Shown here: piece by piece, positions 4,602 to 64,000 of the stretch | Layout: each line of letters begins with the position of its first letter | Position numbering within the stretch: position 1 is the first letter of the stretch | Position numbers and translations under genes: made by a program | NCBI RefSeq assembly: GCF_029873635.1 | Contig: NC_080428.1 | Location: forward strand, 69,647,101-69,711,100 | Direction: 5' to 3' | From: Malania oleifera | Taxonomy: Eukaryota; Streptophyta; Magnoliopsida; Santalales; Ximeniaceae | Length of the DNA stretch: 64,000 nucleotides | The notes under the pieces: generated by a model | What the model was told of the DNA's origin: nothing | Seen by the model: only the letters and a program-made list of their open reading frames with translations | Databases searched by the model: none

Positions 4602-4989
4602 TCTTGACACCAAAAAATGAACTCAATATTTGCGTCTATAGTATTTAACAATCATTTGTAACCAAGAAGAAGAAATTTTGGGACAACCCTAGTGGCCTTT
4701 GAGGGCGCCTTTACATGTTAAAATATGAATTTTTAGATGCCCTACCCCTCCCAAGAGCTCCAATTTTACATAGAAGATACCCCCATGTATGCAATGTATG
4801 GTGTCTTTAAGTTTGAGGGAGTTATATGAAGGGTTATGCGGCTTATGCCCTTTTATCTTCTTCCATTCTTAGGAGTTACACCCCTTTAATCCTTGCCTTA
4901 AAAGAGTATTAAATCACACCTTTATGCTAAGGTGACCTTTCACTCTCTTGGCCAAGCCCTTTGTATGGGCATTGTTTTATTCTCCATCA
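4602..4989 (-). repeat. 3' LTR of the non-autonomous Tat-like element
   Basis: The minus strand starts TGATGGAGAATAAAAC just after the poly-G tract. It matches 5739-6160 along its length with indels. The outer end is mutated (GTCAAGA instead of GTCAACA). Confidence 0.82.
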
Positions 4990-5069
4990 TTTGTACACCT
5001 CCCCCCCCCCCCCCAACACTATTGAGCTTTGAAAACCTAAAAGTACTTATTTGTCAATTTAGGAGCATT

Positions 5070-5275
5070 GATCATCTATCAATATGAGCATAACTCTTCT
5101 ATCATTTATGAGCATAACTCATCTGTTCTTTATGAGCAGGTCCCATCCGTCAATTATGAAAAAGCTTATCTGTTGAATATGGATAGAGCTCACTTGTCAA
5201 TTATGAAGAGAGCTTATCTATGATTTATAAATAGAGTTCATCTATTGAATATGACCAAAACTTATTTGAACTTGA
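5070..5275. repeat. 24-bp tandem repeat, about 8 units
   Basis: Units of the form ATCTGTYNNTTATGAGCATAACTC recur about every 24 bp. The core resembles the TGAG...CTCATC core of the 98-bp minisatellite at 1575-2290, which suggests that the two spacers come from related elements. Confidence 0.75.
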
Positions 5276-5738
5276 ACATTTTGGTTAGTGAGTCTGTTTG
5301 ATTTTTTGTTTTTGACCATTCTATTAGTGGGCCTATTTGGCTTTTTGTACTTCATGGCCTTGTAGTGTGGTCATTTAGGGCTTAATCTTCGCAACCCTAT
5401 TCGGTGCCCCCTTTAGGGCTAAGTCTCTCCTTGTTATTTTCCTGCACATGATTTTTTTTTCTTTGATAGAAAATTGTGGAAGTTGGAGTCTAAGATGTCT
5501 TTTCCTTTTTGTTTTTTGTTTTTTTTTTCTTGGGCTATTTATCTCCCCAAGCACTGAAGTTTAGGTGCTCCCCACCCTTTTTTTGCCTCATCGGACCCTA
5601 GGCCAAGTTGTTCCTCAATTTTTTTTGTGGAGGGGGAGATCAAGGTCCCACCTGCTTGCTCTCTCTCTCTCTCTCTCTCTCTTCCCAATTATGAGGATTG
5701 TCACAAGCGAAACAAACTTCCTACAGACGACACCAAAT

Positions 5739-17200: not shown

Positions 17201-20200
17201 GAACGAAAGCACCGCTCCCGGAGCGTATGCATGTACTTCGAGTAGCCTTAGGAGGGCGAGAGAAACCCGAGAGAACTCCTAAAATTCAAAACCCTAGCAA
17301 AGCAAAAGAGAGGAATTTGATTTTTTTTTTTAAAAAAAGAGCTCACATCTATTTATAGGTGAGCAGCCCAGGAGAAAACCGTCGACGGTTTTCCTGAGAT
17401 GGACAAAACCATCGACGGTTTGACAGTTGACTTGCCCAGTTGACCGAAAACCGTCAACGGTTTTTCTCACACTCTATGAAACCGTTGACGGTTTGGGCTC
17501 TGCCAAACCAAAATCCTTCATTTTCTTTGATTTTCCTTTATCTCTCTCTTTTATATTTATTTACTTTTATTTTCCGGGTTCAGGTTACTACATGAGTGTC
17601 TTCCAAACAAAGTGGATATCAACTTCAATGTGCCTTGTTTGCTAATGGAGGACCGTGTTGGAAGCAATACGAGTAGTAGCTTGATTATCACACATAAGCT
17701 CTATAGACCGAGAATTTGGAAACCTAGTTCCTCCAATACATTCTTTAATCAAACAAGTTCACATCTAATGTGTGCCATGGCCTAACACTTCAACTCAATT
17801 CTTGACTTGGTCACTGTAGTTTGTTTCTTACTCTTCCAAGAAACTAAATTACTACAAACAAAGATACAATATCCGATTGTGGATCTTTTGTCGGAAGGTT
17901 ACTGGGCCCAATTTATGTATGTGTATCCTTAAATATGAGTGTGACCCCAATCTTGATAATGAGATCTCTCATTGGTGCACCTTTAAGATATCTCAGTATG
18001 CAAATTACTGCATCTCAATGACTTGTTCTTGTAGAATCGAGAAACCCACAACTAGTCCTAGCTTACTATTACGATTCATGGGTGTATCAACATGTTTGGA
18101 TCCCAATAAACTAATCTCATCTAAAAGATCAAGAACTTATGTCCTCTGTGACAAGAAGATCCCACCCATGTGAGATCTCAATACTTTTGTACCCAAAGAA
18201 GTGTTGGAGATGTTTCAAATTCTAGCAGTTTTTTGGTTCTTTATTTTGTGGATTAATGCAGCAGTTTTTTTTTTTTTAAAAATAAATTTCTTCCAACAAC
18301 TAGATATTAATGGTGGTATTTGAACGTCAAATACCATTAATCTGCTGTGATAACCGGCTGGAAGTTACTCCTCTATGCAGCCTATAAAAAGGCTTCCTCC
18401 AGCCCTTTCCAAAACACAACCAAAGAAACATATCTCTTTCTCTTTCTTACAAACTTTCTCTCTCCATCATCCAGTAGTAGTCTCTAGTAGATATCTTGTT
18501 ATTATTTTCTTTTTCTATCATCTCTTGCTTCTTTTTTACCCTCTACATTGGGTAACTGTATACTATAGCTCCTAAAGTTTTGGAGTTTGTGAGTGCACGC
18601 AAACCCGAACCTAGCTGAGTAATCTTGGAGACCGTGCATTTTGTGATTATTTGCATCGAGAGATTTTCTCCATAGGCGCAAAATTGGTTTTAAGGATGGT
18701 GGTCCTACCACGCCTCAACTTTTCTATTTGTAATTGTCTCACTATTTTAATTTAGTTAATAATTTTTATTACATCTTAATTTCTTACAATGTTAAAACTG
18801 ATGTGGCCGCCTTCAATCCTACATTGGAGAAACTACTAGCTGATCTCACTCGTGTGGAATCTTTGGATGGGACCAATTACAAGTGTTGGAAAGAAAAAAA
18901 TTATTTTGCCTTGAAAATGCTGTCAGCGGTCTATGTTCTAGAAACTCCCCGACCTCAACCAGAAGGAAATAATAACCACATCATATTAAAGTGGGAGGAA
19001 GATAATGAGAGGTGCAAGAACTATAATCTCAATACTTTAGTGAATGAGTTTTATGATGTTTATTGTAAGTATGACACTGCCAAGGAAATATGGGAAGTCA
19101 TCAACAAGAACTACATCACGAAAGACGTTGGAACCAAGAAACTTGCTTGTAGAAAATTCCTGCGCTACGAGATGATAGATGAAAAAATAGTAGATCTCCA
19201 AATTCGGGAATTTCAAAAATTGTTGCACAATATATTGGCAGAGGGAATAGAAGTAAATGATGTATTTTAGACAGCTTCCCTATTGATAAATTTCCACCAT
19301 CTTGGAATGAGACTTAGAGAACTTTGATGCACAAGAAGAAGGATATGAACTTAGAACAACTTGTCATCTACCTGAGGATTGAAGAAGCTAATAGAAAAAT
19401 GGCGGTTTAGAATAATGAAGTAATGGGAAAAGCAAATTTGGTGGAAGATGGCCAGGTGAGATCTAGGGGGAACTTTAGAATTGGGAAACGAGCTAGGGGG
19501 AGCTACAGAAATAGAAGGTTCAAAGCCAGAGGAAACAACCAAACCAACAATCCAATGTACAACTGAATCAACAACTGAGGAGATGATCGGAATAGCAACC
19601 ATTCTGATAATCGATTTGTATACAACTCCTCGAACATAAAGAAGACATGAGATAATTGTTATGTTTGTGGTAAACCTGGACATCATGCACCTTAGTGTAG
19701 GTTTCTCTAGGGGGTTGGTAATAATAGTAGTAGTAATAATAATAATAATCATAATAATGATAATAAGTCCCAAATCAATATAGTAGATGATTAGGTGATC
19801 TCCGTTGTGGTATCCAAGGTGAATCTTGTGGAAAATCCACATGATTGGATAGTTGTTAGGAATATACGAACAAATTCCCGAAACCTGTGAGAAACAAATA
19901 GAGAAAGAATAACGCCAAAGAAAAATTCAATCACACGCACAAGACAATATTTACGTGGTTCGGCAATTTTGCCTACGTCCACGGAGTTGCAGGGATTTCA
20001 ATATTATCAGGAAGAAAGCACAGAGAGTGCGGCGATACAATTCTCTCGCTCTCGCTCTCTCTCGCGGATACAACCACACAAAAAACTAATCACCCGAAAG
20101 CACCCTTTTTATATGTTGCGCCTAGGGTTCCGTTCCGAATGGGCTCCAAAAATTAGCGAGAGAATTGTATCGCCGCACTCTCTGTGCTTTGTTCCTGATA

Positions 20201-23200
20201 ATATTGAAATCCCTGCAACTCCGTGGACGTAGGCAAAATTGCCGAACCACGTAAATATTGTCTTGTGCGTGATTGAATTTTTCTTTGGCGTTATTCTTTC
20301 TCTATTTGTTTCTCACAGGTTTCGGGAATTTGTTCGTATATTCCTAACAACTGGTATTAGAGCCTAGGGTTAGGTTCGAGTGGGAGCAATGGCAGAGGAA
20401 GTAGGAAGGGCGTCTGGAATAGAAAAGTTTGATGGCACAGACTTTGGATTCTGGAGGATGCAGATCGAGGATTATCTCTATGGGAAGAAGTTACATCTAC
20501 CACTTCTAGGAGAAAAACCTGCTACTATGAAGGACGAGGAATGGACTCTCCTTGACAGACAGGTACTGGGAGTTATAAGATTAACTCTGTCCAGGTCTGT
20601 TGCACACAACGTCGTGAAGGAGAAAACTACAGCAGATTTGATGAAGGCTCTATCTGGTATGTATGAAAAACCATCAGCAAATAACAAGGTACATCTGATG
20701 AAGAAATTATTTAATTTAAAGATGACAGAAAACGCATCTGTAGCACAACATCTGAATGAGTTCAATACTATCACAAATCAATTATCGTCGGTAGAAATTG
20801 ATTTTGATGATGAGATTCGTGCACTAATCGTTTTGGCTTCGTTGCCAAACAGTTGGGAGGCAATGAGGATGGCAGTAAGCAATTCTACTGGAAAGGAAAA
20901 ACTGAAGTATAATGATATACGGGATTTAATTCTGACTGAGGAGATTCGCAGAAGAGATGCAGGCGAAACCTCAGGATCCGGCTCTGCCCTAAATCTTGAG
21001 ACCAGAGGCAGAGGTAATGACCGAAATTCAGATCGGGGTAGATCAAAATCCAGAAACTATAATCGAAACAGAAGTAAGTCCAGACCTGGCCAAAAGGGAC
21101 AATGCTGGAACTGCGGGAAAACAGGTCACTTTAGGAGACAATGCAAAAGTCTTAAGAAGAAGAGTGAGGATGATTCCGCTAATGCTGTAACAGAAGAGGT
21201 ACAGGATACACTACTTCTTGCAGTAGACAGTCCACTTGATGATTGGGTTTTGGACTCAGGAGCTTCATTTCATACTACTTCACACCATGAAATCATACAG
21301 AATTATGTAGCAGGAGATTTTGGTAAGGTATATTTGGTTGATGGTACAGCCTTGGATGTTGTGGGTATGGGAAACGTCTAGATGTCACTGCCAAATGGGT
21401 CTGTTTGGTTACTAGAGAAGGTACGACATATTCCTGACCTGAGAAGGAATTTGATTTTTGTCGGACAGCTTGATGATGAAGGGCATGCGATGTTGTTTGC
21501 TGGTGGCACTTGGAAGGTTACAAAGGGAGCCAGAGTATTGGCTCGTGGAAAGAAATCTGGTACTTTATACATGACGTCAAGTCCAAGAGATACAATTGCA
21601 GTTGCTGAAGCAAATACTGATACAAGCTTATGGCACCGCAGACTTGGTCACATGAGTGTGAAGGGGATGAAGATGCTGCTGTCAAGAGGGAAACTGCCGT
21701 AATTGAAGTCTGTTGATTTTGAATTGTGTGAAAGCTGCATCTTAGGAAAGCAGAAAAGGGTGAGTTTCTTGAAAAGTGGCAGAACACCGAAGGCTGAAAA
21801 ATTGGAGTTACTGCACACAGATTTATGGGGTCCTTCTCCTGTTGCATCCCTTGGGGGTTCAAGGTACTACGTTACTTTCATTGATGACTCAACCAGAAAG
21901 GTATGGGTTTATTTTTTGAGAAATAAATATGATGTATTTGAAACTTTTAAGAAGTGGAAGGCTATGGTTGAGACTGAGACAGGTTTGAAAGTAAAGTGTT
22001 TGAGGTCGGACAACGGAGGAGAGTACATAGATGGAGGGTTCAGAGAGTATTGTGCTGCACATGGAATCAAAATGGAAAAGACCATTCTTGGGACACCACA
22101 GCAGAATGGTGTGGTTGAGCGCATGAACAGAACTCTCAACGAGCGTGCCAGGAGTATGAGGCTACATGCTGGATTACCAAAAATTTTTTAGGCTGATGCT
22201 GTCAGTACTGCAGCTTATCTGATAAACCGAGGACCTTCAGTTCCCATGGAGTTTAGACTTCCTGAAGAGGTTTGGAGCGATAAAGAGGTAAATTTTTCTT
22301 ACTTAAAAGTTTTTGGTTGTGTTTCTTATGTTTATGTTGATTCTAATGCTCGTAGTAAACTTGATGCAAAGTCCAAAATATGCTATTTCATTGGCTATGG
22401 TGATGAGAAATTTGGCTATCGGTTTGGGATGAACAAAACAGGAAAATCATCAGAAGTAGAAATGTGATATTTAACGAACAGGTTATGTACAAGGACAGGT
22501 CAACTGTAGTGTCAGATGTCACAGCGATAGATCAGAAAAATTCTGAGTTTATTAACTTAGATGAGTTGACTGAAAATACTGTCTAGGAAAGGGGTGAAGA
22601 TAATAGGGAGAATGTAGAATCGCAGGAAATTCAAATTACACCTGTAGCTGCGGTCCGTAGATCTTCCAGGGCCACTAGACCTCCACAGCGTTATTCACCT
22701 GCTTTAAATTATCTTCTGCTAACTGATGGTGGTGAGCCAGAGTGTTATAATGAAGCCTTGCAGGACAAGAGTTCAAGCAAGTGGGAGTTAGCCATGAAGG
22801 ATGAGATGGACTCCTTGTTGGGGAATCAGACATGGGAACTAACTGAATTGCCAGTAGGGAAGAAGGCTCTGCACAACAAGTGGGTATACAGAATAAAGAA
22901 CGAACATGATGGTAGCAAGCGCTACAAAGCCAGATTAGTTGTCAAAGGGTTTCAGCAAAAGGAAGGCATTGACTTTACAGAAATATTTTCTCCAGTTGTG
23001 AAGATATCAACAATTAGACTGGTACTGGGAATGGTGGCTGCAGAAAATCTACATCTTGAGCAGTTAGATATGAAAACGGCATTCCTTCACGGTGACTTGG
23101 AGGAAGACATCTACATGATTCAGCCAGAAGGGTTCATTGTCCAGGGACAAGAGAATTTAGTCTACAAACTGAAAAAGAGCTTGTATGGTCTAAAACAAGC

Positions 23201-26200
23201 TCCAAGACAGTGGTATAAGAAGTTTGATAGCTTTATGCATAAAATTGAGTTCAAGAGATGTGAAGCTGATCACTGTTGTTATGTTAAGTTCTTTGACAAT
23301 TCTTATATCATTTTACTGCTATATGTAGATGATATGCTTATTGCAGGGTCTAGCATTGAGGAGATTAATAATCTGAAGAAGCAATTGTCAGAACAGTTTG
23401 CAATGAAGGATTTGGGAGCTGCAAAGCAAATCCTTGGAATGAGAATTATTAGAGACAAGGCTACTGGTACATTGAAGCTTTCACAGTCAAAGTATGTGAA
23501 GAAAATTCTCAGCAGATTCAACATGAATGAATCTAAACCAGTGAGCACACCCTTGGGGAGTCATTTCAAACTAAGCAAGGAACAGTCATCGAAGACAGAA
23601 GAAGAAAGGGACCATATGAGCAAGGTGCCCTATGCTTCAGCTATTGGCAGCTTGATGTATGCTATGGTGTGTACAAGACCAGACATTGCACATGCAGTGG
23701 GAGTCGTGAGCAGATTCATGAGTAGGCCAGGAAAGCAGCATTGGGAGGCAGTAAAGTGGATTCTGAGATATTTGAGGAGTTCATCAGATACATGTCTTTG
23801 CTTCACTGGTGCAAGTTTGAAACTGCAGGGTTATGTAGACGCTGATTTTGCTGGTGATAATGATAGTAGAAAGAGTACTACTGGATTTGTATTTACTTTG
23901 GGTGGTACAGCTATATCTTGGGCTTCTAATTTGCAAAAGATTGTTACTTTGTCTACTATAGAAGCTGAGTATGTTGCAGCAACTGAAGCTGGAAAGGAGA
24001 TGATTTGGCTACATGGTTTCTTAGAGGAACTGGGTAAGAAGCAGAAGATGGGCATTCTATACAGTGACAGTCAGAGTGCAATTTTTCTTGCCAAAAATTC
24101 GGCTTTTCATTCAAAGTCGAAACACATACAAACAAAATACCACTTTATCCGTTACCTTGTTGAAGATAAGTTGGTAATACTTGAAAAGATATGTGGATCT
24201 AAGAACCCAGCAGACATGTTGACTAAGGGTGTTACTATTGAGAAACTGAAGCTGTGTGCAGCTTCAGTTGGTCTTCTAGCTTAAGGAGAGGAGGTTGAGT
24301 TGCAAGGATGAGGGATTGTTTTTCAGGAGGATTGCAGTTGATATTGGTGATTGAACTAGTCTCCAAGTGGGAGATTTGTTGGGCTTTTGTGGAGCCTAGT
24401 TGTGTCTTAATTTGGATGACGACCCGACCTCTGTTTAATTAGAGATTTCTATCCTAAGGCTTAGTCCATGGAGCGAAGGCCTTAGGATAGAAATCTCTAA
24501 TTAAACAGAGGTCGGGTCGTCATCCAAATTAAGACACAACTAGGCTCCACAAAAGCCCAACAGATAGTGGATATCGGTGCCACCAAGCATATATGCAGTG
24601 ATCGTAATCTTTTCAACATATATGAAAAAGTTGATAGGGAATCAGTATTTATGGGTAATGCCCAATCCTCACTTGTGTTAGGAAAGGGTACTGTGAACCT
24701 TAAGCTCACCTTTAGAAAACCTTAAGATTAACTGATGTACATTATATACCAGCTATTAAGAGAAATTTGGTTTCTGGATCCATCCTCAATGAGGTTGTTA
24801 TTAAATTGGTTTTTGAGTCAGGCAAATTGATCTTGACTCGTAACGGTGTCTTCCTAGGCAAGGGTTACTGTAGTAATGGACTGCTTGTGTTGACTGTTAT
24901 TAATAGTACGAATAAAAATATTAGTTCTTCTACTTATTTAGTTGATCTTTAGATCTTTGGCATGATAGATTAGGACATATAAACTTTGTTCCTGTTAAAA
25001 GAATGAGGAATCTTGGTCTAATAGCAAGCTTAGCTAACTCTAACAAAGAAAAATGTAAAATTTATGTTGAAGCTAAATTTACTAGAAAACCTTTTAAATC
25101 TGTGACAACTACACAATTATTAGAACTCATCCATAGTGATTTTGGAGATTTTAAAAGTCAGATGATTAGAGGTGGTAAAAAAAATTATTACATAACCTTT
25201 GTTGATGATTTCTTAAGATATGCAATAGTTTATTTATTAAAATCAAAATATGAAGCTAAAGATGCTTTTATTAAGTTTAAAATAGATGTGGAAAATAAAA
25301 AAGATAGGAAAATTAAAAGATTAAGAACTAATCGAGGAGGAGAATATGAATCAAGATTTTTAAGTGAATCTTGTGAACAAAATGGAATAATACATGAAGT
25401 AATAACTCCTTATACACCTAAACAGAATGGTATAGCTGTAAGGAAAAATAGAACACTGAAAGATATGATGAATGTAATGTTAGTAAGTTCAGGTTTGCCT
25501 TCTAATATGTGGGAAGAAGCTATTCTATCTACTAATCTTATACTCAATAGAATACCACCTAAGAAAAGTGATAAAACACCTTATGAATTATGGAATGGCT
25601 ATAAACCCAATCTAAAATATTTGAAAATGTGGGGGTGTTTAGCTATAGTAGGTTTTCAAGAAGTAAAGAAAAGGAAAATTGGTCCTAAAACTAGTAACAG
25701 AGTATTTATAGGATATGCCCAAAATAGTGCTGCATATAGATTCTTAATTATTAGATTTGATAATTTTGTGTTAGAATCGAATACAATAATAGAAACACGA
25801 AATGCAGAATTTTTTGAAAACATTTTTCCTTTAAAACATAAAGAAGAAATAATAGATAAAACAATAGATAAAACAATAGTTAAAACATCTTGTGGAAAAG
25901 AAATTGTTGACAACAATGTAAAAAATACTGAACCTAGGAAAAGTAAAATATGTAGAAAGGAAACAACTTTGAGTCTAACTTTGTGACAAATTTTCTAGTT
26001 GAAGATGATCCACTTACATTTCAACAAGCTATAACTTCACTAGATGCTATGTTTTGGAAAGAAGCAATTGAAGATGAATTAGAATCTCTAAACATAAATA
26101 ACACATGAGATCTTGTAGATTTACCACTTGGACAAAAAATAATAGTGTGTAAATGGGTATTCAAAAAGAAATTGAGACTAGATGTAGTATTGATAAGTTT

Positions 26201-29200
26201 AAAGCTGGATTAGTAGTCAAAGGGTATAACCAAAAAGAAGAAGATGTTTTTGATACTTATTTGCCAGTTACAAAGGTCACAACTATTAGAGTTTTAATAG
26301 CTTTAGTTTATATATATAACCTATATATATATAAGATGGATGTAATACTTGCATTCTTGAATGGTGATCTAGAAGAAGAAATTTATATGGAACAACTTGA
26401 AGGTTATAAGGTACATGGTGCTAAGAATAAAGTTTGTAAATTAGTTAGATCTTTGTATGGACTTAAACAAGCACCTTTACAATGAAATGAAAAGTTTGAT
26501 AACATTCTTATAAGTGATGGATATAAAATTAATGAATCGGATAAATGTTGTACAACATATTTGATGGTAATAGTGGTGTAATAATATGTTTATATGTCGA
26601 TGATATGTTAATGTTTGGCCCCAGTTTTGAAATAGTCAGCTCAACCAAGTTGTTTCTTGCCTCAAAATTTGGAATGAAAGACTTGAGACAAGCATACGTA
26701 ATTCTAGGTATAATAGTTATACGAGAGCACAATGGTATTTGTTTATCCCAGTCACATTATGCGGAAAAAAATTTGAAAAAAACTTGATCATATTGATGGC
26801 ACCTTATGATGCTGGTTTACAATTAAAGAAAAATAAAGTGATCCTGTTGCTAAGGTTGAGTATGCTCAAATAGTGGGTTCTTTAATGCATTTAATGAATT
26901 ATACACGCCTAGATATTGCATTTGCAGTATGTAGACAGTAAACTGAGCAGATACAATCATAATCCTAGGCATGACCACTAGATAGCACTAAAAAAGGTGT
27001 TGAAATATCTTAAGGGTAATGGACTATTTTATTGTGGATTCCCTATAGTTGTAGAAGCATTTTTCTATGTTAATTGGACATTAGACACAAATGATACGAA
27101 GTCTACGTGTGGCTATATTTTTACTTTAGCCAATGCTACTGTTTCTTGGAAATCCCAGAAATAGACATGCATAGCAAAGTCCACTATAGAGGCAGAGTTT
27201 GTAGCTCTAGAGAAAACAACTAATGAAGCTGATCGGTTAAGGAATATGTTGGCAGATATTTCTTTGTGGGTTAAATCGGTACCATCTTTGTCCATATGTC
27301 GTGATTGCCTAGCAGCAATAACTCGATCAAATAATAAGACTATAATGGCAAGAGTAGGCATATACGCCTAAGCAAGGTCCTAAATTTTGATTTCGACCCA
27401 AATTTCAAAGCTCCAAAAGTAAGGAAATTTTGATTTCGATGTCAATTTCAATTTTGATTTGAAAAAATAACAGAAATCAGTAGTAAAGCATGGAATTCCT
27501 TGTGAAACTTTAGAAATGGTTAGCAGACATAATAATGTAAGTTCTAGGACTAATCTATTGCAAGTTAAGAACATCTATGTTGTCTATGAGGTGGAAAAGC
27601 TGTAATATAGTATGTGTATCAAACATATTTGTAAGATAATGTGCATTAAACATATTTAGTTCATACAAATGAAATTCATAAATCATTCAAATATGATTCA
27701 TTATACAAATAATGGTAACTTAGACATGAATGGTTAAATAAAATATTGTTGTAAGTTTATTTTTTCATATAATTTCATAAGCACTTGTAATAATCTTTTG
27801 TTTCTATAAAAATAAATAAAATAAATTAAGAGAGAAATTTCACTTCATTCCTAAATCTCTCATCTGATTTTGAATTCCTAGGAAATTTCATTGCATAGTT
27901 AAAATTTCGAGATTTCGATAAATTTTAGATGATTCATTGAGTTTTTGATGGAAATTATGCAAAATGGAAATCGACTGCCATTTTGATTTCGAGGGTAACG
28001 GAAACCAGAAATTTCGACAATTTCGTGGAAATTTAATACCATGCACCTAAGACATAAGATAGACAGAAAATTAATCTCAATTGGAGTGATCACTTTGAGT
28101 TATGTGAGATCAGAGAGAAATTTAGCAGATCCTCTGGCAAAGAAACTAGCTAGAAAGCTAGTAGAAGAAACATCGAGGGGGATGGGTCTTAGGCTCTTAA
28201 CATAATTTACTAATGATGACAACCCAACCTATGTGATTGGAGATCCCATGAATTAGGTTCAATGAGTAATAACAAGTCATTGAGGAGTCTGTTGAGCCCT
28301 ATTTTTTTTTCGTTTTGCGCATCCCTATGGTGTTGGAATAGTGCAACTATAGCGATTGTGAGGATGAATTTATCTCTTAATAAGTCCATAGCCTTTGTTA
28401 GGTGGTGTGTTTAGTTGTAGTTAATGAAGGATTCACCTATATGAATGTGGAAATGGGGCCACTTCCTATTAAAGTTTAGTGGGCTAAACCTTTCTACAAC
28501 ATTCATGAAAATCCAGGTATGGTGCATGGCCTATTCGTACCAACCCGCAAGAGCCTTGTATTTAGCAATGTCATGTGAGTTGTGTTATATAGAGTTCACT
28601 AAAATAGGTTGATTCAAGATTATAAAATTCGCCAAGTTCTTGTAGCTCATAGCACACATTCTCTAAGTGCAATTCAAACTGAAAGGTATTGTCACCCTTT
28701 GCATGCTTTTTCATGGTTACCCAACCTTTGTTTTACTTCTATTTTTTGTTTTGTTTTGTTTCCTAATTTGAAACATGTGGGGGATTTTTGGACATGTTTC
28801 AAATTCTAGCAGGTCTTTGGTTCTTTATTTTGTGGATTAATGGCAGCAGTTTTTTTTCTTTGTGTTATTTTTCAGCTGTTTTTTTTGTTTAATTTCTTCC
28901 AACAGCTAGATACTAATGGTGGTATTTAAACGGTCAAATACCATTAATCTGCAACAATAACCGGCTGGAAGTTACTCCTCTATGCAGCCTTTAAAAAGGC
29001 TACCTCCAGCCCTTTCCAAAACACAACCAAAGAAACATATCTCCTCTTTCTTACATACTTTTTCTCTCCACCACCCTGCAGTAGTCTGTAGTAAATATCT
29101 TGTTATTATTTTCTTTTTCTATCATCTTATTCTTGTTTCTTTTCCTTCCTCTACATTGGGTAACCGTATACTATAACTCCTAAAGCTCTGGAGTTTGTGA

Positions 29201-32200
29201 GCGCACACAAACCCGAGCCTAATTGAGTAATCCTGGAGACCGTGTGCTGTTACTATTTGCATTGAGAGATTTTCTCTGTAGGCGTGAAATCAGTTTTAAG
29301 GACAGTGGTCCTACTGTGCTTTAGCTTTTCTATTTGTAATTGTCTCATTAATTTATTTTAGTTATTGTTTTTATTACATCTTAATTTCTTACAAGAAGTA
29401 CTTCAATGGACCCAAATCCTTGATTTGAAACTTATTTTTTAGGAAATGCTTTAGGTCTTGGATAGCTTGATCATCGTCATCATTCATCAAAATAACATCC
29501 GCATACACAATAAGCAGAGTACTGTCGGATGAAGTATGACAATCAAATACAAAATGATCTATTGCACAATGTTGGAGGCAAACTCAAGTATTATAGCACT
29601 GAATCAGCAAAACCATACTGAAATTTTAGAGCTGGTTACCAGTAGGTACTGGTTTCTAGCCTCGTTGCTCATGTCTATTATATGGTGTTTAAAAAATTAT
29701 TGTATTCCCTGTGGTGAGTGTAATCTATTTTGTGTTTCTGCTCCATGTGCTGTCAAGCTGCACGTGCTAGGGAGTGTTAAGGACCTTGAATACTTGTGAA
29801 TGAAGTGAATGAAGAGGGAAATACAGTTATGGTATGCTATTCACCTGACCAAGTGAATGAAGAGGGAAATACACTCTTGGGATATGGGGACTCCATCCTG
29901 ACAGACAACCTTGATATAGCAGCAAATAAGAAATGCATGGTGAACAAAATGCTTTTCGAATTCACTAACTCCATACAACAACACAACCTTCGACAACCGG
30001 AGCAAACCCCAAGCACATGATGAACAAATCACAGACAGAGCAAACAACTGTTTCAGGTCCCAATGAACTCAATAAACTTTGACAAACAGCTTTAGGAAGT
30101 ATCAAACAATCATTCCCCAGGTGCTGCAACTTGATATTATGGTCTATGGAAGAAATCAAAGCATTTTGGAAAAAAAATGCAGCAAAATCATGTCAAGAAG
30201 AGGTCTCACATGTCAGTGCATGGGGTTGGAGCTGACGGCAATCAGCTGGCAGGTGGTCTGCAGGCAATGATATTTCACATACCTATAGATCAGGGTGTTC
30301 TTTGACTTCCTATGTGACTGTTTTCGTGAAATATGGAAGGATTCTGATGATTCTGGGATGGCAGCAACAGCTAGGTTGTTTTCTGTTGTCTGTTGAATTT
30401 TCTGGCAATCCTTGGATTGGTTTCTAGGCTATAGAGTGTAGTTGATCCTCAAATAATGACAAATTTGCATAGGATGATCAGGTTTAGGGTTTTTTTTGGT
30501 GGTAGGTTTTAGGTTGGATCTTCCTCTAATACCATGTTAAGATATTAGGTAAAATGGAAGACCTAACTGCAGTGGTAGGTCTCTCCCTCTATTTAATATA
30601 TGTCAAATTATATCAATGGCCATAACATCCTTACTAACTCACGCTTACCAACATAACACTATTTCATACTAATAATGATTAATGACTAAGATAACCATTA
30701 ACAGTCACATTGGTTCTATGCTTAGTCATCACGAGCCAAGCTTGTTCAGGGCATTATGTTTGCCTGTGACCGCTTTTCTTTTGCGTTTGGGATGGGTTTC
30801 CATCATGTAAATACTAGTGTAGGGTTATTTTTAGGAGATAGTTTTTCCCTAGGCTAAAGAGGTTATATTGATGTTTCCTAGTGCTAGAGTGAGAATAACA
30901 TAAAAAGCTCTTTAGGGGAGAGTTAGTGTTCATCAACTTGTAAAACTCACTAGCTATTGTAAATATATTTAGCCTACTTGCCACCCTCACTAGACACACA
31001 TTGTTAATGGTGGTGTTGATTAATGAATTACGTTGCTTCAATGTTTACTACTTGCGTGCCACTACTTTCATAAGTTGCTTTTGCTTCTGCTTATATTTCC
31101 TTGAATGATCATGAAAGTGTTCTGTTGGTGAATTGTGGTAAATACTAGGCTAGCTAGTTAAACAAAAGTGCTTTAGCTAGCGTCGTATGATCCTTCACAA
31201 AGGTGTGAAATATTTAGTCCGTGACACCTGGTCTCAGAGCTTGGTTAATTGCCACGTGAATTCAATTGCCTTCGTTGTGGGATTGATAAAGCTTTGGTAA
31301 GTGACCATGTCGACCAATGCCCAGAGAATTGATGTGCTAGAAGCACAGGCTGATAAGGTAGCCAACAATGTGGCCGAAGAGATGGTCTGACTTGCGGATC
31401 AACAAAGTTCGATGGTGGAAATTTCAGAGGACTTTCATTATACTATGGAGACCTTGCAAGCTCAGATAAGCCGATTTGAGTACGAAGATGAATGTGGTGG
31501 TTCTTGCTATGGGAAACTCGTAACACTCTGGGGTTTAGCAAGACCAAGGTATCAGAACCTAGGATGTATGGGGGTGCTTGTGATGCCAAGGAGTTGGATA
31601 ACTTCTTTGTTTGATATGAAGCTGTACTTTTACTTTGAGGATGGACTTGGAACAGGTGAAAGTGGATACTGCGACTATGTACTTGGTTGGTGATGCTAAA
31701 TGTGATGGCATACCAAGTATGATGAAATTGAGAATGGACACTGTGTAGTTGATTGTTGGGTGGACTTGAAAAGAGAACTCAAGGCCCTAAAAATGTTAAT
31801 AATGCTAGAAGAAAGCTAAGAGACCTCAAGCATACTGAGTCAATCAGGGAATATGTGAAACAATTTCCTGTTTTGATGTTGGATATACAGAACATGTTAG
31901 AGAGGACAAGCTGTTCTATTTTCTTGAGGGGTTGAAATGGTGGGTAAGAACCAAACTTCATGGACAAAGAGTTCAAAACTTGTCTACCACACAAGCTGCC
32001 GCAGAATGTTTGATTAACTACGTTGGTGATAATTTCGCTTTGTCCAAAGAGAGTGGTGTGGGTGGAAACGGTGGAAAGTATTTCAAGAAGGGCAAACCCA
32101 AAAGTGGGGGAGTGTCATAAGACAAGCGATCACAGGAAAGCATAATGCCCTAAACAAGCTCGACTTGTGATGCTCGCCCACTTATGCAGTTGACGTTCTC

Positions 32201-38180: not shown

Positions 38181-39174
38181 ACGAGTTATATAACAAAAAA
38201 GCTTATCAAAGATAAATATGCAGTAGCGATTCGTGTTGATTCTTACCGAAACAGACATTTAAGTGTGTCAGTTATATTTTAATTAGAGATCCGTATTGAT
38301 TCTTGTGGAAACAAACATTTAAGTGTGCCATACATGTTTTAATTAGTGATTCGCGTTGATTCTTGTGGAAACAGACATTTAAGTGTGTCATATCTATTTT
38401 AATTAGCGATTGGTGTTGATATTTGCGGAAACATGCATTTAAGTGTGTCGTATCTATTTTTAGTTGAGTGTGGATTGTACTTTAATTAAATGATCTGTAC
38501 TTTTTCATAAGGAAATAGCGTGTCAAGCCTATTTAGGTACACGTTACTTATGTCTAATTGATCCAATTGCTTTGGATTAATCAATTGACGTCAACATGAC
38601 AAAATAATTCGATTATTATTTTAATTTTTTTAAAACGAGTTGCGTGAAAAAAAACTTATCAAAGACAGATATGCAGTGTAAATAGCGTCAGTTATGTTTT
38701 AATTAGCTATTCGAATTGATTCTTGCAGAAACTAACATTTAAGTGTGTCAATTATGTTTTAAATAGCGATTCGTATTGATTCTTCCGGAAACCAGCATTT
38801 AAGTGTGTCATATCTGTTTTAATTAGTGATTCGTGTTGATTCTTGCGTAAACAAACATTTAAGTGTACCATACCTGTTTTAATAAGCGATTTGTCTTGAT
38901 TCATGCAGAAACATGCATTTAAGTTTATCATATTTGTTTTAATTAGCGATTTGTCTTGATTCTTGCGGAAAGAGACATTTAAGTGTGTCATATCTATTTT
39001 TAGTTGTGTAGGGATTTTGCTTTAATTAATGATCTGTACTAATCCATAAGGAAATAACACGTCAAGCCTGTTTAGGTATACGTTACTTATGTCTGATCAA
39101 TCCAATTACTTTGAATCAATCAATTGACGTCAACATAACAAAATAATTCGATTGTTATTTTAATTTTTTTTAAA
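38181..39174. repeat. 60-bp satellite arranged in two higher-order blocks
   Basis: The unit is roughly GCGATTCGTGTTGATTCTTG + CGGAAACAGACATTTAAGTG + TGTCATATCTGTTTTAATTA. There are four copies at about 38222-38460 and five at about 38700-38990. Each array sits between the same flanks (ACGAGTT-GAAAAAA-CTTATCAAAGA before; TTGACGTCAACAT-ACAAAATAATTCGATT after), so a block of about 0.5 kb has itself been duplicated (38181-38634, 38635-39174). Confidence 0.88.
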
Positions 39175-47674: not shown

Positions 47675-49567
47675 CATATGGAATACCTGTATCTGATAAA
47701 CATATATAAACAACCCGCCCTAAACAGGGACAAACAGGCGTATCTCATACATATTTGTACTCATACACAGCGGAAAACATAAACATTCTCATTCGGGGTT
47801 CTATTAGACATATACTAAAGTTCTAACTATATTCCTTAGTATAAAAGATCCATGTTCAAAACATAAACATATTACACTCTCTTACATTCTACTAGGCTAA
47901 CAACCTAGTACGAATACAAAAACTTAAGTTTACCTACAAGACTATACGCGCCAAAGTCCCTCTAGAAGAACTAGGACTGACGTCTTGTAGGACCTGAAAC
48001 AGAGGTTGTAACATTGGGGTGAGACACCTCTCAGTAAGGTGGAAGATATTACAATAGCACGTGACTACATGAGTTTATTCCAGTTAAAAATAGTTGCATA
48101 GTATTACATACATAGTATAGTAGTATCAGAGATATATAAACATAATATGACATCATTACAATCGAGAGTCCCCGAGATTAGGGTAGAGTACAGGCTCATA
48201 CGCTGTACGATTCCCTCCACACGGTAATCAACCCTGTGACTTAACCCATTTCAGTTTTTAAATCATGTATATGAAAACTTAGGACAATGACCAGCTTTGG
48301 AACTTTCAGTAATATGCCTAATTATCCCGTGGCATGGGTTGTGCACTGATAACTTTGATAGAGCCCTGTTCGTGTAGGCACTGTCAAGCATCACATATAT
48401 AGTCCGACTGCCCCACCTGGTCTGTAATTTCACTAGTGGCCCCATACACTCCTGCAAGCCGACTATCTCGATACCCACACTAATTCACATGTGTGGTTGC
48501 ACTGTACCTCAGTAAGCAACAGAGCCACACCTCTAGCTATTTAAAACCTCAGATAACCTGGAGTATCTTTCAACTCTTTCGAAGTGTCTTTCAACTCCTT
48601 TAGTAACAAGCTGTGGTTTCAATTAATCATATATATAATTTACAATAAAAAATAACAACCCGTGCAGTTCTAGTATTTTCACAATCACAATCATGCAATC
48701 TTTCATGCAAATTTTCTTTTCTGTCAATTAGTGGTGTTAATCGGCACAAATGCTCTTGGTTCAACCCTTTTACATTTTAAGCTCGGTGATTAACTGACAC
48801 CTGTTTCCCACATTTTCATATAATAGAATGAAATTTCAGTTTCTCATAGTTCGTTTACCCATATACAGTTCAGTAGGTTCCATTTCATATCATATGTCAC
48901 GTTCGTTTCGTCAAAATCTGTTATAAACAATATATAATTCAAAAAATACCATTTGGACCGCAAACATGGGTATCAAGCAGTTCATACTTTAGTTTTAGAA
49001 CAATTTAAAGTAATTTTGGAAAATTTGGAGTTTATATACCAAAACCCCTATTTTTTTTTTCCAAAAATCGTAAAACCGTAAGAAACAACATTTATACCTA
49101 GTAAAATTTTGCAAATAAGCAGTCAGAATGTGCATAAAGGCATAAGCCATCTTTCTAGCGGTTCAGTTTTCTAAAAAAAACATTGATGTAAATAAATCCC
49201 CTTACCTTAATCCTGAAAACAGAAATACGAACGGATCGGTCCAAAACAACGACCTGGGATCCCCGAAACCTAAAAATCGAAGAACAATACTTCACTAGAA
49301 TCATGACTACTACATATATACCGAATCAAAAACAAAATCAGATCCTTACCTCGTTTTTAGGGAAAAACCCGAAAATCTTCAAAATAAGGATTTGATCCAC
49401 TATAACTGAAGAGATTCTCCTTTTGATCTACGCAGAAACCTTCGATCGTGGAAATAGACGATGAACAGCGAAGGATCGTAGAGAGAGAGAGAGAGAGAAC
49501 TCACTGGTTCTAGAGAGAGAAAGAGAGAGCTTTTAGGTTTTCTTCACCCTTAAGCAACCAAAAATGA

Positions 49568-50349: not shown

Positions 50350-51757
50350 ATGGAATCCAGGGATATTACTGCCAACGTTGGAGGTAGTAGTAGTGAGGGT
50401 GCTCACCATGAGGCTGGCAGTGACTCTACTAGTGTGCTACGGGACTTCACTCTGCAGCTTTTGGCTAAGGTTGTCCAAATGAATAAGGGTCAGAATCGTC
50501 CCCTTGTTGAGTTGGGATGCTCCATTGACCAGTTCACATGACTAAAACCTCCTATTTTCATGGGGAGTGCGGATCTGATTCGAGCTGAGAATTGGATTGG
50601 GGAGATTAAGAAGATTCTAGACGTCCTTAACTGCACTGAGAAGCAGAAGGTGGCCTTTGCGACGTTTAAGCTGATAAGCGAAGCAGAGAGGTGGTGGAAG
50701 TTAGTTAAGATGCTTGAAAAGCATCAACCTACTCCTATAGTTCTGACGTCGGCTTGGTTCAAAGATTTATTCTTTGAACAGTATTTTCCAGCCACGGTCA
50801 GAAATGCTAAGATGGAGGAATTCATGAGTCTGGAGCAGGTGTAGCTGTCGATTCAACAATATGCTTCCACATTTCAGGAGCTATATCAATTTGCTCCATT
50901 CATGATTCCGGACGAGGCAAAGAACGCTTGGAAGTTTCAGAGGGGCCTAAAGAAGGAGATTAGGAAACAGACTGCGATCTGTAAGATGTAGGATTTTGCT
51001 ACTCTAGTTGACAAAGCCACCGTAGTAGAGGAGAGTTTGTAAGAGGACCTTGAGGTTCAGGTTCCAAAGAAGAGACCCGTGCCTTCCAGTTCTTATGGAG
51101 GGGCAAAGCAGGGCAATTGAAAGAAGAACAATGGTGGTACTTCTCAAAGTACCGAAACTACTCCGGCTTGTTCCAAGTGTGGGAGAGACCTCACTCAGGG
51201 AAGTGTTTGTTGGGTTATGGAGCTTATTTTCGTTGTGGTAGGATGGGAGATCAAAGGAAATATTGTCGCATGCTGATGAAAACTGGAGCTCCACAACAGT
51301 CATATGGAGGAGGTGTTTAGGCACAACGGGGTGGTCAACAAGGGGGGACAGCCCAGGCTAAGGTGTACTCCCTAAGTCCTGGTGACGCAGAGAATGCAAG
51401 AGATATTGTCACAAGTACCATTTACATGCTTTCCAATAAAGCTGTTATACTATTCGACTCGGGGCAACACATTCCTTTATATCTCGAGGACTTGTTAAAC
51501 TGTGTGGCATTGAGACTCAATAGTTAGATTATGAACTAGTGGTGGCTACGTCTTTAGGGTCGATAGTCGTATGTAGAAGGGTAATCCATGACCTTCCAGT
51601 AGAAATTCAAGAGAGAGTACTACCAGTTAGTCTTATTGTGTTTGATATGCATGACTTTGATATTATTCTGGGTATGGACTGGTTGTTTGTCAGTTATGCC
51701 AATATCGATTATCACGGGAAAGAAGTGGTGTTTAGACCTCCGGGGAAGTAGGAATTT
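50350..51757 (+). pseudogene. Gypsy-C gag and protease
   Basis: From ATG 50350: gag core with MGSADLIRAENWIGEIKKIL, KVAFATFKLISEAERWW, WFKDLFFEQYFPATVR and FQRGLKKEIRKQ, then two CCHC-like knuckles (CSKCGR..., then CGRMGDQRKYC), then protease with LFDSG (51449-51463; the following A is lost with a frameshift) and FDMHDFDIILGMDWL (51638-51682). Several TAG stops sit where related sequences have Q. It is of the Tekay/Del type by comparison with Gypsy-B. It is cut at about 51757, with no RT or integrase. Confidence 0.85.
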
Positions 51758-53446
51758 AGAGGTAAGGATCTGAATTCGTTTTGTTTCGTTAGATCTGTAG
51801 TAAATTGAATAATATTGAAGTATTGTACTTCGATTTTTAGGTTTTGAGGATCTTGTGTCATAGGTCAATAAGCTCGTGTGTCAGTTTTCAGAATAAAGGT
51901 GAGGGGATTTGTTTACATCAGTATTTTTAGAAAAAGAAACCACAAGATATGTAGCTTATGTTTATATGTACGTATTGGATGCTTATTTGCAAAGTTTTAC
52001 TCGGTATAAATGTCGATTCTTATGGTTTTCACAATTTTATGGTTTTGGAAAAAATGGGGTTTTCGGTATATGATCTCCAAATTTCTTAAACTACTTTATT
52101 TGCACTAAAACTAAGGTAGGAGATGCTTGAAACTCCTAATAGCTGCAGAAATGATATTTTACGAACCAGTTTATATGAAATGTATAATTTACCAAATAAG
52201 TGTGACGTATGATATGAATTGAATCTATATTGATTTGAGATGTATGTATATGAACTATGGGGACTAAGGTTCCAAGTGATTATCAGAAAATGCAGAAAAT
52301 AGGTGCCGGTTAAATACTATGCCAAGTATGAGAAAAGGGTAAAATCGAGAGGTTACGAACCGATTTTTACCATGGTATGAATGAAAGTATGCATGAACGA
52401 GATTGTGAAAATACTGGGATTACGTAGGTTACTATGTTTTAATGTAAATTGTATATATGATATTGGGACCGCAACTTGTTTTACTAGTATATGAAGCCTT
52501 AAAAAGCTTATATTATGTAGGTTCGGTACTGTTGCCAAAACAGAGGTACAGTGCAACCACACGTAGTTATTTTTCAGTATGGGTACCTAGTAGTAGGCTT
52601 GGTAAGAAGGGTCACTGGTCAAAAGGGATTAGGGTGGTGATGGCCAAGTTGGACTACAATATGTTATGATGCCTGACAATGCCTGCACGAACAGGGCTTG
52701 ATTAGTGCTTTCTTATCGCACAACCCTTGCCATGGGGAGTTACTCGCATAGTTATGATAGTTTCGAGTTGGACGGTGTTCTAAATATGCATATGCATGAT
52801 TTAAAAGGTTTACTAGGCAAAGTCACAGGTCCGAGTACCGGCCGGAGGGATTGTACAGTGTGTGGGCATGTACCCTACCCTAACATCAGGAACTCTCACT
52901 TGTAATAATGCTGGATTTTATATTATCAAGGATTTATATATGTACTATATATACATTACGGTATTGAGGAGGTGCAACCTATGTAACTATTTTCAAACTA
53001 GAATATAACTGTACAATCACACACTAATGTAATATCTTCCTCCTTACTAAGAAGTGTCTCACCCCAATTTACAACCTTTGTTTCACGAGTTATAGAAAAT
53101 CGGTCCTAGTCTTCTAGAAAGACTTTGGGGCGTAGCGTCTGGTTAGCTGACGTAAGTTTTGTATGAGTTCTGGGTTGTTTAGCTAGGATGAGTTAGAATG
53201 GGAATGTAATATGGTTTATGTTTTATGTACGGATGAATATATGTAAGGAACAATTAGGCACTCCGGTACGTCTATTAGAATCCATATGAATGTTTATGTT
53301 TTCCACAATATGTGTAAGTACAAATTAGTATGGTATACCTGTATGTCCCTGTTTAGGGCGGGTATTTTATGTATGTTATCAGGATTTGTACAAGTTATGT
53401 ATGTATAGTAGCACTCTGGGGCCGTATAAAGGGTCGGGGCATTACA
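51758..53446. mobile_element. Partial Gypsy-C LTR in opposite orientation
   Basis: Reverse complement of the 45553-49968 LTR, covering about 1.7 kb from GAGGTAAGGATCTG to the end GGGGCATTACA. It lacks the solo Copia insertion, so it shows the uninterrupted LTR. It joins the protease sequence at 51758, where GAG is shared by both sides. To its right is a polypurine tract in minus orientation. Confidence 0.83.
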
Positions 53447-55517: not shown

Positions 55518-55593
55518 TGTAGAGACCCGAAGAATTATAGTATTATATAATAAAAGAGGGAGAAAAGGAAATTCAATAGGAGAAATTGCAAGG

Positions 55594-55812
55594 CTCGTCG
55601 ACGAGACCGTGTCGACAAGCCCTTCGGTCTCGTCGATGAACTCACTATTAGATTTGTCGCATGCCACGTGTCTCGTCGACGAGAAATTACCGAGAGGGTT
55701 GTTTTCAGGGCCTGAACTTTGTTGAAGATGTGCAAGTGTTCATCGACGAACTCTCTACTTAGCCTCGTCGACGAAGTGACGTGTCTTGTCGACAAAGGTT
55801 GGTGTATAAATA
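55594..55812 (+). promoter_or_regulatory. LTR promoter: TATA box plus CTCGTCGACGAG palindromes
   Basis: About seven variants of CTCGTCGACGAA/G between 55594 and 55797 (55594-55605 is a perfect 12-bp palindrome) end 7 bp before TATAAATA (55805-55812). Confidence 0.55.
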
Positions 55813-56499
55813 GGCTCAAATCCGATTTTTGCGGGAAAATTCATACTAAACATTTTCTCTCTCTCTCTCATTTCGGCTCCCTCACATTCTATCTTCAATT
55901 CTGGCCCCGTTCTTTACCGGTTCTACGATTGGAAGCTGCCACGTCACTCCTAGGAAGATTCTCTACACATCTACTAGAGTAATTTGTTGGTTAGGCTAAC
56001 TTGGGAACCATCCCAAAATTTGAGTAAGTTAGTTAATTTCAGTTTTATTAGGTTTTTGGTGTTTCTAGACTGAGAATAATATGTTAGGTAAAATAATACT
56101 AATTTTTTTTTAAGGAAAATATTAATTTCAGGGTGTTGAGCTGGGGACCACACGGGTGTGATTTTGGAGTAATTCGTAACTTTTTCATAAGTCAAGTAAG
56201 GGGATAAACTAAGTTAGGTTTCTTATGAAAATGTATTTACTATTTTACAACAATTAATTTCAGGTAAATATGTATATTGTAGGATTATGTTGGAAATAAT
56301 GCTATTGATCAGAAATATGGTTTTCATGTATAATATCAAAAATATGATTTTAGAACAGATTTTATGTTCTGAATATTACCCATTTTGTGTGGCATGGGTA
56401 ACATTTACCATGGAAATTATGATGATGAAATATTATGTTTACAGAATGAGTATGTTATTACTGCTTTTAGGGAAATATTAAAATAATATGGGGATTTGA

Positions 56500-56665
56500 A
56501 AACCAAAGATTTTATATGATATATCGGTGTAAGGGTCGAAGATTTTATATGATATGTCGGCGTAAGGGCCATGATTTTATATAATATGCTATGCCGGCGT
56601 AAGGGTCGTGGTTTTAAATGATATGCTATGCCGGCGTAAGGGCCGTGAATTTTATATGATATGTT
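56500..56665 (+). repeat. Short tandem repeat in Gypsy-B LTR
   Basis: Four to five units of about 40 bp with the core ATATGATATGTCGGCGTAAG followed by GGCC or GGTC. The corresponding array in the 3' LTR is at about 63600-63760. Confidence 0.75.
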
Positions 56666-57934
56666 ATATAAGGTTTTATGAAAATATTAACACAACAGAT
56701 ATCATTATGAAATAGTCATGTATCATTATTTAGAAATATACTATATGCTATCAGAACCTGGTGGGCATGGTTTAGGCTTTCACGAAGCACAATACCGTAA
56801 CTATATGATCACGATCATGTATATGTTAGTGCTACCACTTGTCGTAAGGGGTAGTGGGAGAACGGAAGTCGATGTGGTTTTATGGTAGTGCAGGCATCCC
56901 TCTGGTGTCCGGACCAAGAGGGGCATAATCATCGTACTTATAGACTTATGTTGATCTAACGTGGTCGGTCAACCATAACTAGGTCCCGCCTTCAAGCCGC
57001 ACAACCCAGTCATGTGGGGGTAAGACATGACACCAGCCAGCTATCCATCTAAGGTGTTTTTCATGTACAGTTATATGAAATGATTTATATGTATATAAAT
57101 TCAGTATGTTATACCATGTTATGATAAATTATGTGTTTCCCAGATATGTCACAAACAGTTTTATCAAAAATGATTATTGTACTGTTATATGTATAGCACT
57201 AAAATACTCATGTTGCCACACATTGATATTAGTTTATATCCCTTACTGAGAGGTGTCTCACCCTAGATATATAAACATTTCGAGAGCCCCAGATAGAAGG
57301 GTGGATAGAGCTCCACAGTGTTAGAGATTGACTGTTCTACCCTGTCTGAAGGGTAAGTCATTTTGCTAGGGTCTGATGGATTTTTGGGTGGCGATCCTAG
57401 GGCACTTTTTGGATATTTTGGGATGTATGTATGTATATGACTAAAAATCTGGTATTGTGTTAGATGGATGATTTGATATGTATATGATTTTACATTTCCC
57501 GCTGCTTAGGTATCAGTGTTGTATTTCAAGTATGCCCTTGGTACCCATGGGTCTAGGTTGAATATGTTTTATCAATTTTATTATATTGTTTTAAAAAAAA
57601 TTATGGTAAAATAGACAGGTCATTACAATTTGGTATTAGAGCCTAGGTTGCTAGGTTCTGTAGACTCTAGAGTGCAGTAGAAACAATACCAGAGTATAGG
57701 GAAATGATTTGAGGTTTTGTTTTATAGGTTAGAGGCAGGATTTCCGTGATGGTTTCTATATTTTTTCTTGGGGTGACGATTTCAGGAAAACCATAGTAAA
57801 CTATTGTCGGGCTATGTTTATACAGTGTAGAACTAAATTTTGAAATAAGATAAGGATGTCAAGATAGGGGATTTTGGTTAGATGTGTAAGTTATAAGGAT
57901 AGGGTCTCTAAGTCATGTTTATTGTCTTTTCTGG

Positions 57935-62656: not shown

Positions 62657-64000
62657 TATAGAGACCCATAGAATTATAGTATTAAATAATAAAAGAGGGA
62701 GAAAAGGAAATTCAAAAGGAGAAATTGCAGGGCTCGTCAACGAACCCTTCGGTCTCGTCGACGAACTCACTACTAGATTCGTCGCACACCACGTGTCTCG
62801 TCGACGAGAAAGGGCCTGAAATTCATCGACAATGTGTAAGTGTTCATTGACGAACTCTCTACTTAGCCTCGTCGATGAAGGCTGGTGTATAAATAGGGTC
62901 AAATCCAATTTTTGCGAGAAAAATTCATGCTAAACATTTTCTCTCTCTCCCAATTTGGCTCCCTCACCCATTTCACCTCCCTCACCTTCTCTCTTGGATT
63001 CCGACACCGTTCTTTGCCGGTTCGATAATCGAAAGTTGCCATGTCACTCCTGGGAAAAGTCTCTACACATATACTAAAGTGATTTGTTGGTTAGGCTAAC
63101 TTGGGAACCATCCCAAAATTTGGGTAAGTTAGTTAATTTCAGATTTATTAGGTTTTTGGTGTTTCTGGACTGAGAATAATATGTTAGGTAAGATAATACT
63201 GAGATTTTTTTGGAAAAATATCAATTTCAGGGTGTTGAGCTCGGGACCACATGGGTGTGATTTTGGAGTAATTCGTAGGCTTTTTCATAAGTCAGATAAG
63301 AGGATAAACTAAGTTAGGTTTCTTATGAAAATGTATTTACTATTTTACAACAATTAATTTTAGGTAAATAAGTTATTGTAGGATTATGTTGGAAATAATG
63401 CTGTTGATCAGAAATATGGTTTTCATGTATAATATCAGAAATATGATTTTAGAACAAATTTTATGCTCTAAATATTACCCTTTTTTTGTGGCATGAGTAA
63501 CATTTACCATAGAAATTATGATGATGAAATATTATGCTTACAAAATGAGTATGTTATTACTGCTTTCAGAGAAAGATTAAAATGATACAAAGATTTGCAA
63601 ACTAAAGATTTTATATGATATGTCGGCGTAAGGGCCAAAGATTTTATAAGATATGCCGGCCTAAGGGCCAAGGATTTTATATGATATTATGGCGTAAGGG
63701 CCGTGATTTTAAATGATGTGCTATGCCGACATAAGGGCCGTGAATTTTATATGATATGTTATGTAAGGTTTTATGAAAATATTAACATGATAGATATTAT
63801 TATGAAATAACCATGTATCATTATTTAGAAATATACTATATGTTATTAGAACCTGGTTGGCATGGTTTAGGTTTTCACGAAGCACGGTACCATAGCTATA
63901 TGATCACGATTATGTATATATTAGTGCTACCACTTGTCATAAAAGCCAATGGGAGAATGGCAGTCGATGTGGTTTTATGGTAGTGTAGGCGTCCCTCTGG
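62657..64000 (+). repeat. 3' LTR of Gypsy-B (partial in window)
   Basis: Matches 55518-56890 with substitutions and deletions. For example, the palindrome cluster is shorter (62732-62880) and the first TG is now TA. The remaining 0.75 kb or so is outside the window. Confidence 0.92.
62732..62895 (+). promoter_or_regulatory. 3' LTR promoter copy: TATA box plus CTCGTCGACGAA repeats
   Basis: About six variants of CTCGTCGACGAA precede TATAAATA (62888-62895). The spacing matches the 5' LTR, minus one deleted segment. Confidence 0.52.

Follow-up and report, generated by a model that had tools for sequence, protein, structure and literature searches.

A Copia insertion with two unlike ends

The window analysed here is a 64,000-nt stretch of Malania oleifera (NC_080428.1) without any N, and the element under study is a Tnt1-like Copia retrotransposon at 19854–24562 that has a quasi-palindrome at either end. 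The left inverted repeat has arms at 19854–20050 and 20155–20349, which differ by one mismatch and one 2-bp gap and are separated by 104 bp; the right one has perfect 84-bp arms (24377–24460 and 24479–24562) separated by 18 bp. Compared with each other, the two ends match best over just 11 bp with one mismatch, bearing out the preliminary description of two different foldbacks without shared sequence. The element begins TGTTAGG and ends CCCAACA, and direct reading finds GATAGT on both sides (19848–19853 and 24563–24568), so that the TG...CA tips and bounding repeat first described stand. This two-ended foldback structure is real in the assembly, and it is that of one damaged copy, not of a new kind of element.

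The insertion interrupts an older Copia element on the plus strand (18204–29394), recognized by repeat comparison and Pfam, whose long terminal repeats (LTRs; 18204–18789 and 28788–29394) are 84% identical. When the host flanks are joined with a single GATAGT, they read continuously in one frame (22 residues read) through what, judging by its motif, looks like the aspartic protease region of the host. Since the flanks can be read in one frame as host Copia coding sequence, the insertion is genuine and GATAGT is its target site duplication (TSD). Copia elements usually make 5-bp TSDs; here the length is 6 bp, while among 23 TSD-flanked single LTRs of the family, 22 have 5 bp and one has 6 bp. 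GATAGT might be read as a TSD of 5 bp with one base left untrimmed, but that idea was set aside, since another copy (L018) also has 6 bp.

The 4027-bp interior (20350–24376) and all its features lie on the plus strand. It opens with a primer binding site, TGGTATTAGAGCC (20352–20364), which resembles the end of initiator-Met tRNA; 5′ LTRs in other family copies have ACTGGTATCAGAGC directly downstream. Pfam then places a gag region with Retrotran_gag_2, a CCHC zinc knuckle and the start of Pol_BBD at 20380–21381, the rest of Pol_BBD, GAG-pre-integrase and the integrase core (rve) in two open pieces at 21382–22191, and reverse transcriptase (RT; RVT_2, 1.2e-80) plus a stretch behind it at 22758–24284. 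A polypurine tract (24365–24376) adjoins U3, and seven 3′ LTRs of other copies have ...CAAGTGGGAGATT directly upstream. Both the binding site and the tract were identified by direct reading and by comparison with the LTRs of those copies. The order gag, zinc knuckle, integrase, RVT_2 is that of Copia elements, in agreement with the identity first proposed. Grapevine proteins appear among the RT matches listed (120 of 7995): TNT 1-94-like Pol proteins, one of them at 88% over 93% of the query, and one of Ty1/copia type at 91% over 84%. A metagenome protein is also listed, at 94% over 82%. The element thus resembles the Tnt1-like Ty1/Copia elements of plants in its gag with CCHC, integrase before RT, primer binding site, polypurine tract and TG...CA tips; unlike them, this copy has no pair of direct LTRs. 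A foldback (FB) or terminal-inverted-repeat DNA transposon was rejected because the ends are not inverted repeats of each other, sharing nothing beyond the 11 bp, and a DIRS-like retroelement because the rve core is present and Pfam found no recombinase domain in the scanned pieces.

Four pieces of an ordinary LTR

Normal copies were taken from the genome assembly (1.49 Gb, 510 contigs), in which 39 loci matching the outer left piece of the element were fetched and 37 LTRs delineated; L010, which is without U3, and L041, for which delineation failed, were dropped. These 37 LTRs are the best matches to that piece (40 scored of 2013 candidates) and not a random sample. Normal copies have direct LTRs of 377–506 bp, and the set comprises 23 single LTRs with matching duplications, seven 3′ LTRs, four 5′ LTRs and three LTRs without a clean duplication. 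In ten regions there are near-complete copies, which match the interior piecewise at 96–99% identity and are colinear with it where present, L057 being without part of the interior and L056 having a shortened 5′ LTR. In eight of these ten relatives both tested LTR segments are found, direct, at both ends, where this copy has foldbacks instead.

Reconstruction of the normal LTR from relatives, a check that had been suggested for this element, allowed all four break points to be mapped on 491-bp LTRs (L002/L009, L029). The outer left piece (19854–20154, minus strand) is the last 301 bp of the LTR (~192–491), inverted, with the U5 tip outermost; it has contiguous 96–99% matches to other LTRs over all or nearly all of its length (1–301), and comprises the 3′ part of U3 with a TATA-like box and the variable sequence that follows this box, then R and U5. 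The inner left piece (20155–20349, plus) is the last 195 bp (~295 to the end, with 2 bp missing) and is joined to the primer binding site. By the same LTR comparison, the inner right piece (24377–24478, plus) is the first ~102–104 bp of U3 (1 to ~103) and ends at the tip of the natural U3 hairpin arm, and the outer right piece (24479–24562, minus) consists of positions 1–84 of U3 in inverted orientation, with the U3 tip outermost, and ends at the base of that hairpin; its alignment to L029 extends to 95 through a partly self-complementary loop. The 18-bp right spacer is ordinary U3 within the inner right piece, and the 104-bp left ‘spacer’ is the surplus length of the outer left arm.

The right end is therefore made of the U3 side in both directions, as was first reported. 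At the left end U5 is indeed present both ways, but the outer arm is 301 bp long and runs into the 3′ part of U3. Nor is the placing of U5 outermost on the left and U3 outermost on the right the reverse of normal: read against these LTRs, the outermost tips are the ordinary U3/U5 pair of an insertion in minus orientation, and it is the interior with its LTR stubs that runs the opposite way. With an ordinary tip pair, no unusual integration substrate is needed, and the hairpin-ended complementary DNA (cDNA) and failed strand transfer that had been invoked are not required; the outer left piece, moreover, passes the presumed transcription start. Self-priming of plain, untransferred strong-stop DNA is ruled out by the U3 sequence with its TATA-like box in the outer left arm. 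As a separate observation, LTR copies differ by a few bases ~30 bp behind the TATA-like box, probably at the transcription start, as if untemplated bases had been added at strong-stop transfer.

The junctions were found only at this locus. A 31-mer across the left junction occurs once in the whole genome when up to three mismatches are allowed, and the exact right palindrome core was found only here with spacers of 0–30 bp and nowhere with spacers of 31–61 bp. These searches thus gave no sign of an inherited family trait, in keeping with the earlier view that the structure arose by accident. No exact match to a 52-mer was found in IMG/VR, nor to a 23-mer in GTDB contigs; an RT piece did match two stretches in IMG/VR, but their relationship to the element was not confirmed. 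In the open-licence literature, as judged by titles and the starts of abstracts, we found no report of an LTR element whose two ends are foldbacks, one of U5 and one of U3.

Palindromes can be misassembled, and an assembly or sequencing error might in principle create such ends. An error would nevertheless not easily produce two separate foldbacks around an interior present once, together with TSDs that match and an empty site that can be read, and the left arms are not identical; we regard an artefact as highly improbable.

A hairpin in a hypervariable part of U3

Positions ~84–190 of the LTR consist of a hairpin, with a stem of up to 29 bp, plus G-rich repeats. Two U3 stretches that bear the hairpin gave folding z-scores of −9.35 and −8.25, with none of 200 shuffles equally stable, and an exact stem of at least 12 bp remains in 10 of the 37 copies. 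Length variation is concentrated in the same place: compared with the reference L029, 33 of 36 LTRs carry a gap of at least 8 bp, and 40 of the 41 such gaps lie within reference positions 75–200, which make up 26% of the LTR. The mid-U3 layout differs between the two LTRs of a single element in three of eight cases (L049, L050 and L053).

Three of the four breakpoints sit in this hypervariable stretch, which forms a strong hairpin when intact. Similar losses are found in L021–L023, which lack 102/103 to 196, near points 103 and 194 of the present element, although these are three LTRs of two elements and partly reflect the same event. A further copy, L089, is a single LTR in which a 130-bp tandem duplication (126/130 identical) takes in U3 together with 15–17 bp of host flank and has its breakpoint at the hairpin loop; the U3 copies lie at 5320–5218 and 5190–5088. 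Since host DNA is included in the duplication, this break occurred in the chromosome, after integration.

A proposed inversion of the interior and its alternatives

The explanation we prefer, and to which we give slightly less than an even chance, is that the interior was inverted between two broken LTR hairpins and sealed by end joining. The starting point would have been a minus-orientation Copia element inserted in the ordinary way, TSD–LTR–interior–LTR–TSD, with both LTRs carrying the mid-U3 hairpin beside the G-rich repeat, in the region whose length varies in most copies examined. Both LTRs would then have broken, one losing ~85–294 and the other ~104–191, and the freed interior with its LTR stubs would have been rejoined in reverse by end joining, with overlaps of 2 and 0 bp. 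Each tip would thereby come to face an inverted stub of the same part of the LTR, giving two different foldbacks. The same product could be reached if hairpin arm a of one LTR recombined with a′ of the other and the centres were lost later. We infer both the breaks and the inversion in this copy, as well as their having occurred in the chromosome and not in cDNA.

The outer and inner pieces do fit one LTR pair with a single gap per LTR. Where they overlap, the outer and inner arms differ by two events in 279 bp, one substitution and one 2-bp gap, both in the inner piece; the substitution is absent from 57 other LTR segments and the gap from seven aligned copies. Pairs this close make up 8 of 666 among the 37 LTRs and two of eight among within-element LTR pairs (totals of 3, 9, 7, 8, 9, 3, 2 and 1, under slightly different counting). 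At the junctions, the left shows no microhomology and the right shows 2 bp, overlaps that fit end joining better than self-priming. The interior has meanwhile accumulated changes of its own: 22 of 4027 positions are private to this copy in comparison with ten copies, counted at positions present here so that its own deletions fall outside the 22, and 19 of them are C>T or G>A. Each of the four stops, of which three are in the gag–integrase frame and one in the RT frame, falls at a private change, from which it follows that this copy decayed on its own.

Several points weigh against an inversion. It requires two breaks in one provirus, and no uninverted allele was seen in the single assembly examined. 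The outer piece differs little from the family norm, 7 of the 37 copies lying within two differences of it, and the U3 arm belongs to a widespread type that is the same in 4 of 37 LTRs and, over 1–104, in at least 10 other loci; a common origin of the outer and inner pieces is thus only weakly favoured by these comparisons. The fourth breakpoint (~LTR 295) lies outside the hairpin stretch and 11 nt from the start of L056 (G000:C7:91951400–91957000), a near-complete copy in which the 5′ LTR begins at an internal TG (~LTR 306) that directly abuts a 5-bp duplication, ATAGG. L056 is apparently an integrated incomplete cDNA, and its start so near the fourth breakpoint hints at a reverse-transcription stop. 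Finally, when the genome was searched at the DNA level for the right end, and 40 of 1522 candidates were scored, one further U3 palindrome came to light, L088, 82% identical; this count is a lower bound and covers the U3 side. Among 86 U3-bearing loci, U3 is present both ways round within 400 bp only in L088 and in the two loci that contain the element studied here. L088 is a 232-bp remnant of an old LTR with the TSD ACCTC (4903–5134 of a fetched region that starts at 7155702 of G000:C6), in which U3 1–79 is followed by an inverted U3 that stops precisely at the tip and then by ~LTR 434–491, the last ~58 bp. Its palindrome is older than, and different from, those at 19854–24562. It needs a free U3 tip, and so would be explained more naturally by a cDNA-level event or a nested insertion.

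A nested origin of the present element would begin with a minus-orientation solo LTR flanked by GATAGT and hit in mid-U3 by a plus-orientation copy of the family, after which palindrome-driven deletions would have removed both centres and shortened the inner LTRs. Solo LTRs are frequent in the family, as the 23 single LTRs above attest; the closeness of seven other copies to the outer piece is also what nesting would allow, and L088, in which an exact U3 tip abuts LTR ~434, could have arisen from an inverted copy nested there and a later hairpin deletion. Plant LTR elements often target palindromes, according to the title of one report (PMC6911290). We nevertheless consider nesting rather unlikely. 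It needs two extra deletions, each erasing an insertion junction, and none of the 37 copies comes as near to the inner piece (at least three differences in every case) as the outer piece does (two). An outer LTR that was there first should also be the older, yet it has no private substitution in the 279 bp tested, where 1.5 would be expected from the interior rate (P 0.22 if equal in age, 0.05 if twice as old). This last argument is weak: the outer LTR and the interior were compared with different sets, and the outer stretch beyond those 279 bp has, close to the start site, a T-rich variant for which none of the 37 other LTRs gives an exact match.

Self-priming provides a cDNA-level alternative to inversion, in which the U3 hairpin would stall reverse transcription and the ends would switch strand or prime themselves, run off at the U5 and U3 tips and be used by integrase. 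By the general steps of reverse transcription the element tips coincide with strand 5′ ends, a stable U3 hairpin is present in some copies, L056 would be an aberrant cDNA integrated in the same family, and the inverted U3 of L088 ends exactly at the tip. Two independent switches would, however, be needed in a single cDNA, the scant junction overlap is unfavourable, and untransferred strong-stop DNA would not include sequence upstream of the TATA-like box, which the outer left piece does. We judge this origin unlikely. A broader version, in which the hairpin repeatedly snaps back RT products and the resulting hairpin-capped cDNA, with a stem end resembling a true LTR tip, is accepted by integrase, would make this element and L088 two integrated examples; we find it quite doubtful. 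If it were true, integrase would take self-primed ends.

Related rearrangements, as described in the papers cited here, differ from this one in particular respects. Human palindromes break and are joined with 2–11 bp of identity, and in PATRR translocations (PMC4255720) two hairpin-forming loci break and misjoin with little homology and some loss, as we propose here; in our element both hairpins lie in one element, and the outcome is an inversion. ‘InternalInversion’ proviruses of HIV (PMC6588551) likewise have an interior inverted relative to the tips, but here both breakpoints are in LTRs, so that each end becomes a foldback. The template-switch insertions of Triticeae (Sabot and Schulman, 2007; PMC1950507) share an odd LTR structure within one TSD; those have three LTRs and two interiors, whereas here there is one interior and no internal LTR. 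Inversion products of autointegration (PMC3952818) also have inverted segments with element tips, but they are circles, and autointegration alone was rejected because it does not yield a linear, TSD-flanked insertion.

Inversion between broken hairpins suggests that an LTR retrotransposon could lose its recognisable direct LTRs in one step, and would tie LTR instability to a hairpin carried in U3. Programs that seek direct LTRs would miss such an element.

Other repeats were seen elsewhere in the window. A large degenerate inverted repeat (47693–49352 and 51759–53382), centred near 50550, is 68.6% identical over ~1.7 kb. A tandem array of a 60-bp repeat occupies 38224–39174 in two blocks. A direct repeat of ~1.4 kb (55520–56905 and 62659–64000), with copies 85% identical and 7.1 kb apart, is possibly an LTR pair running past the window.

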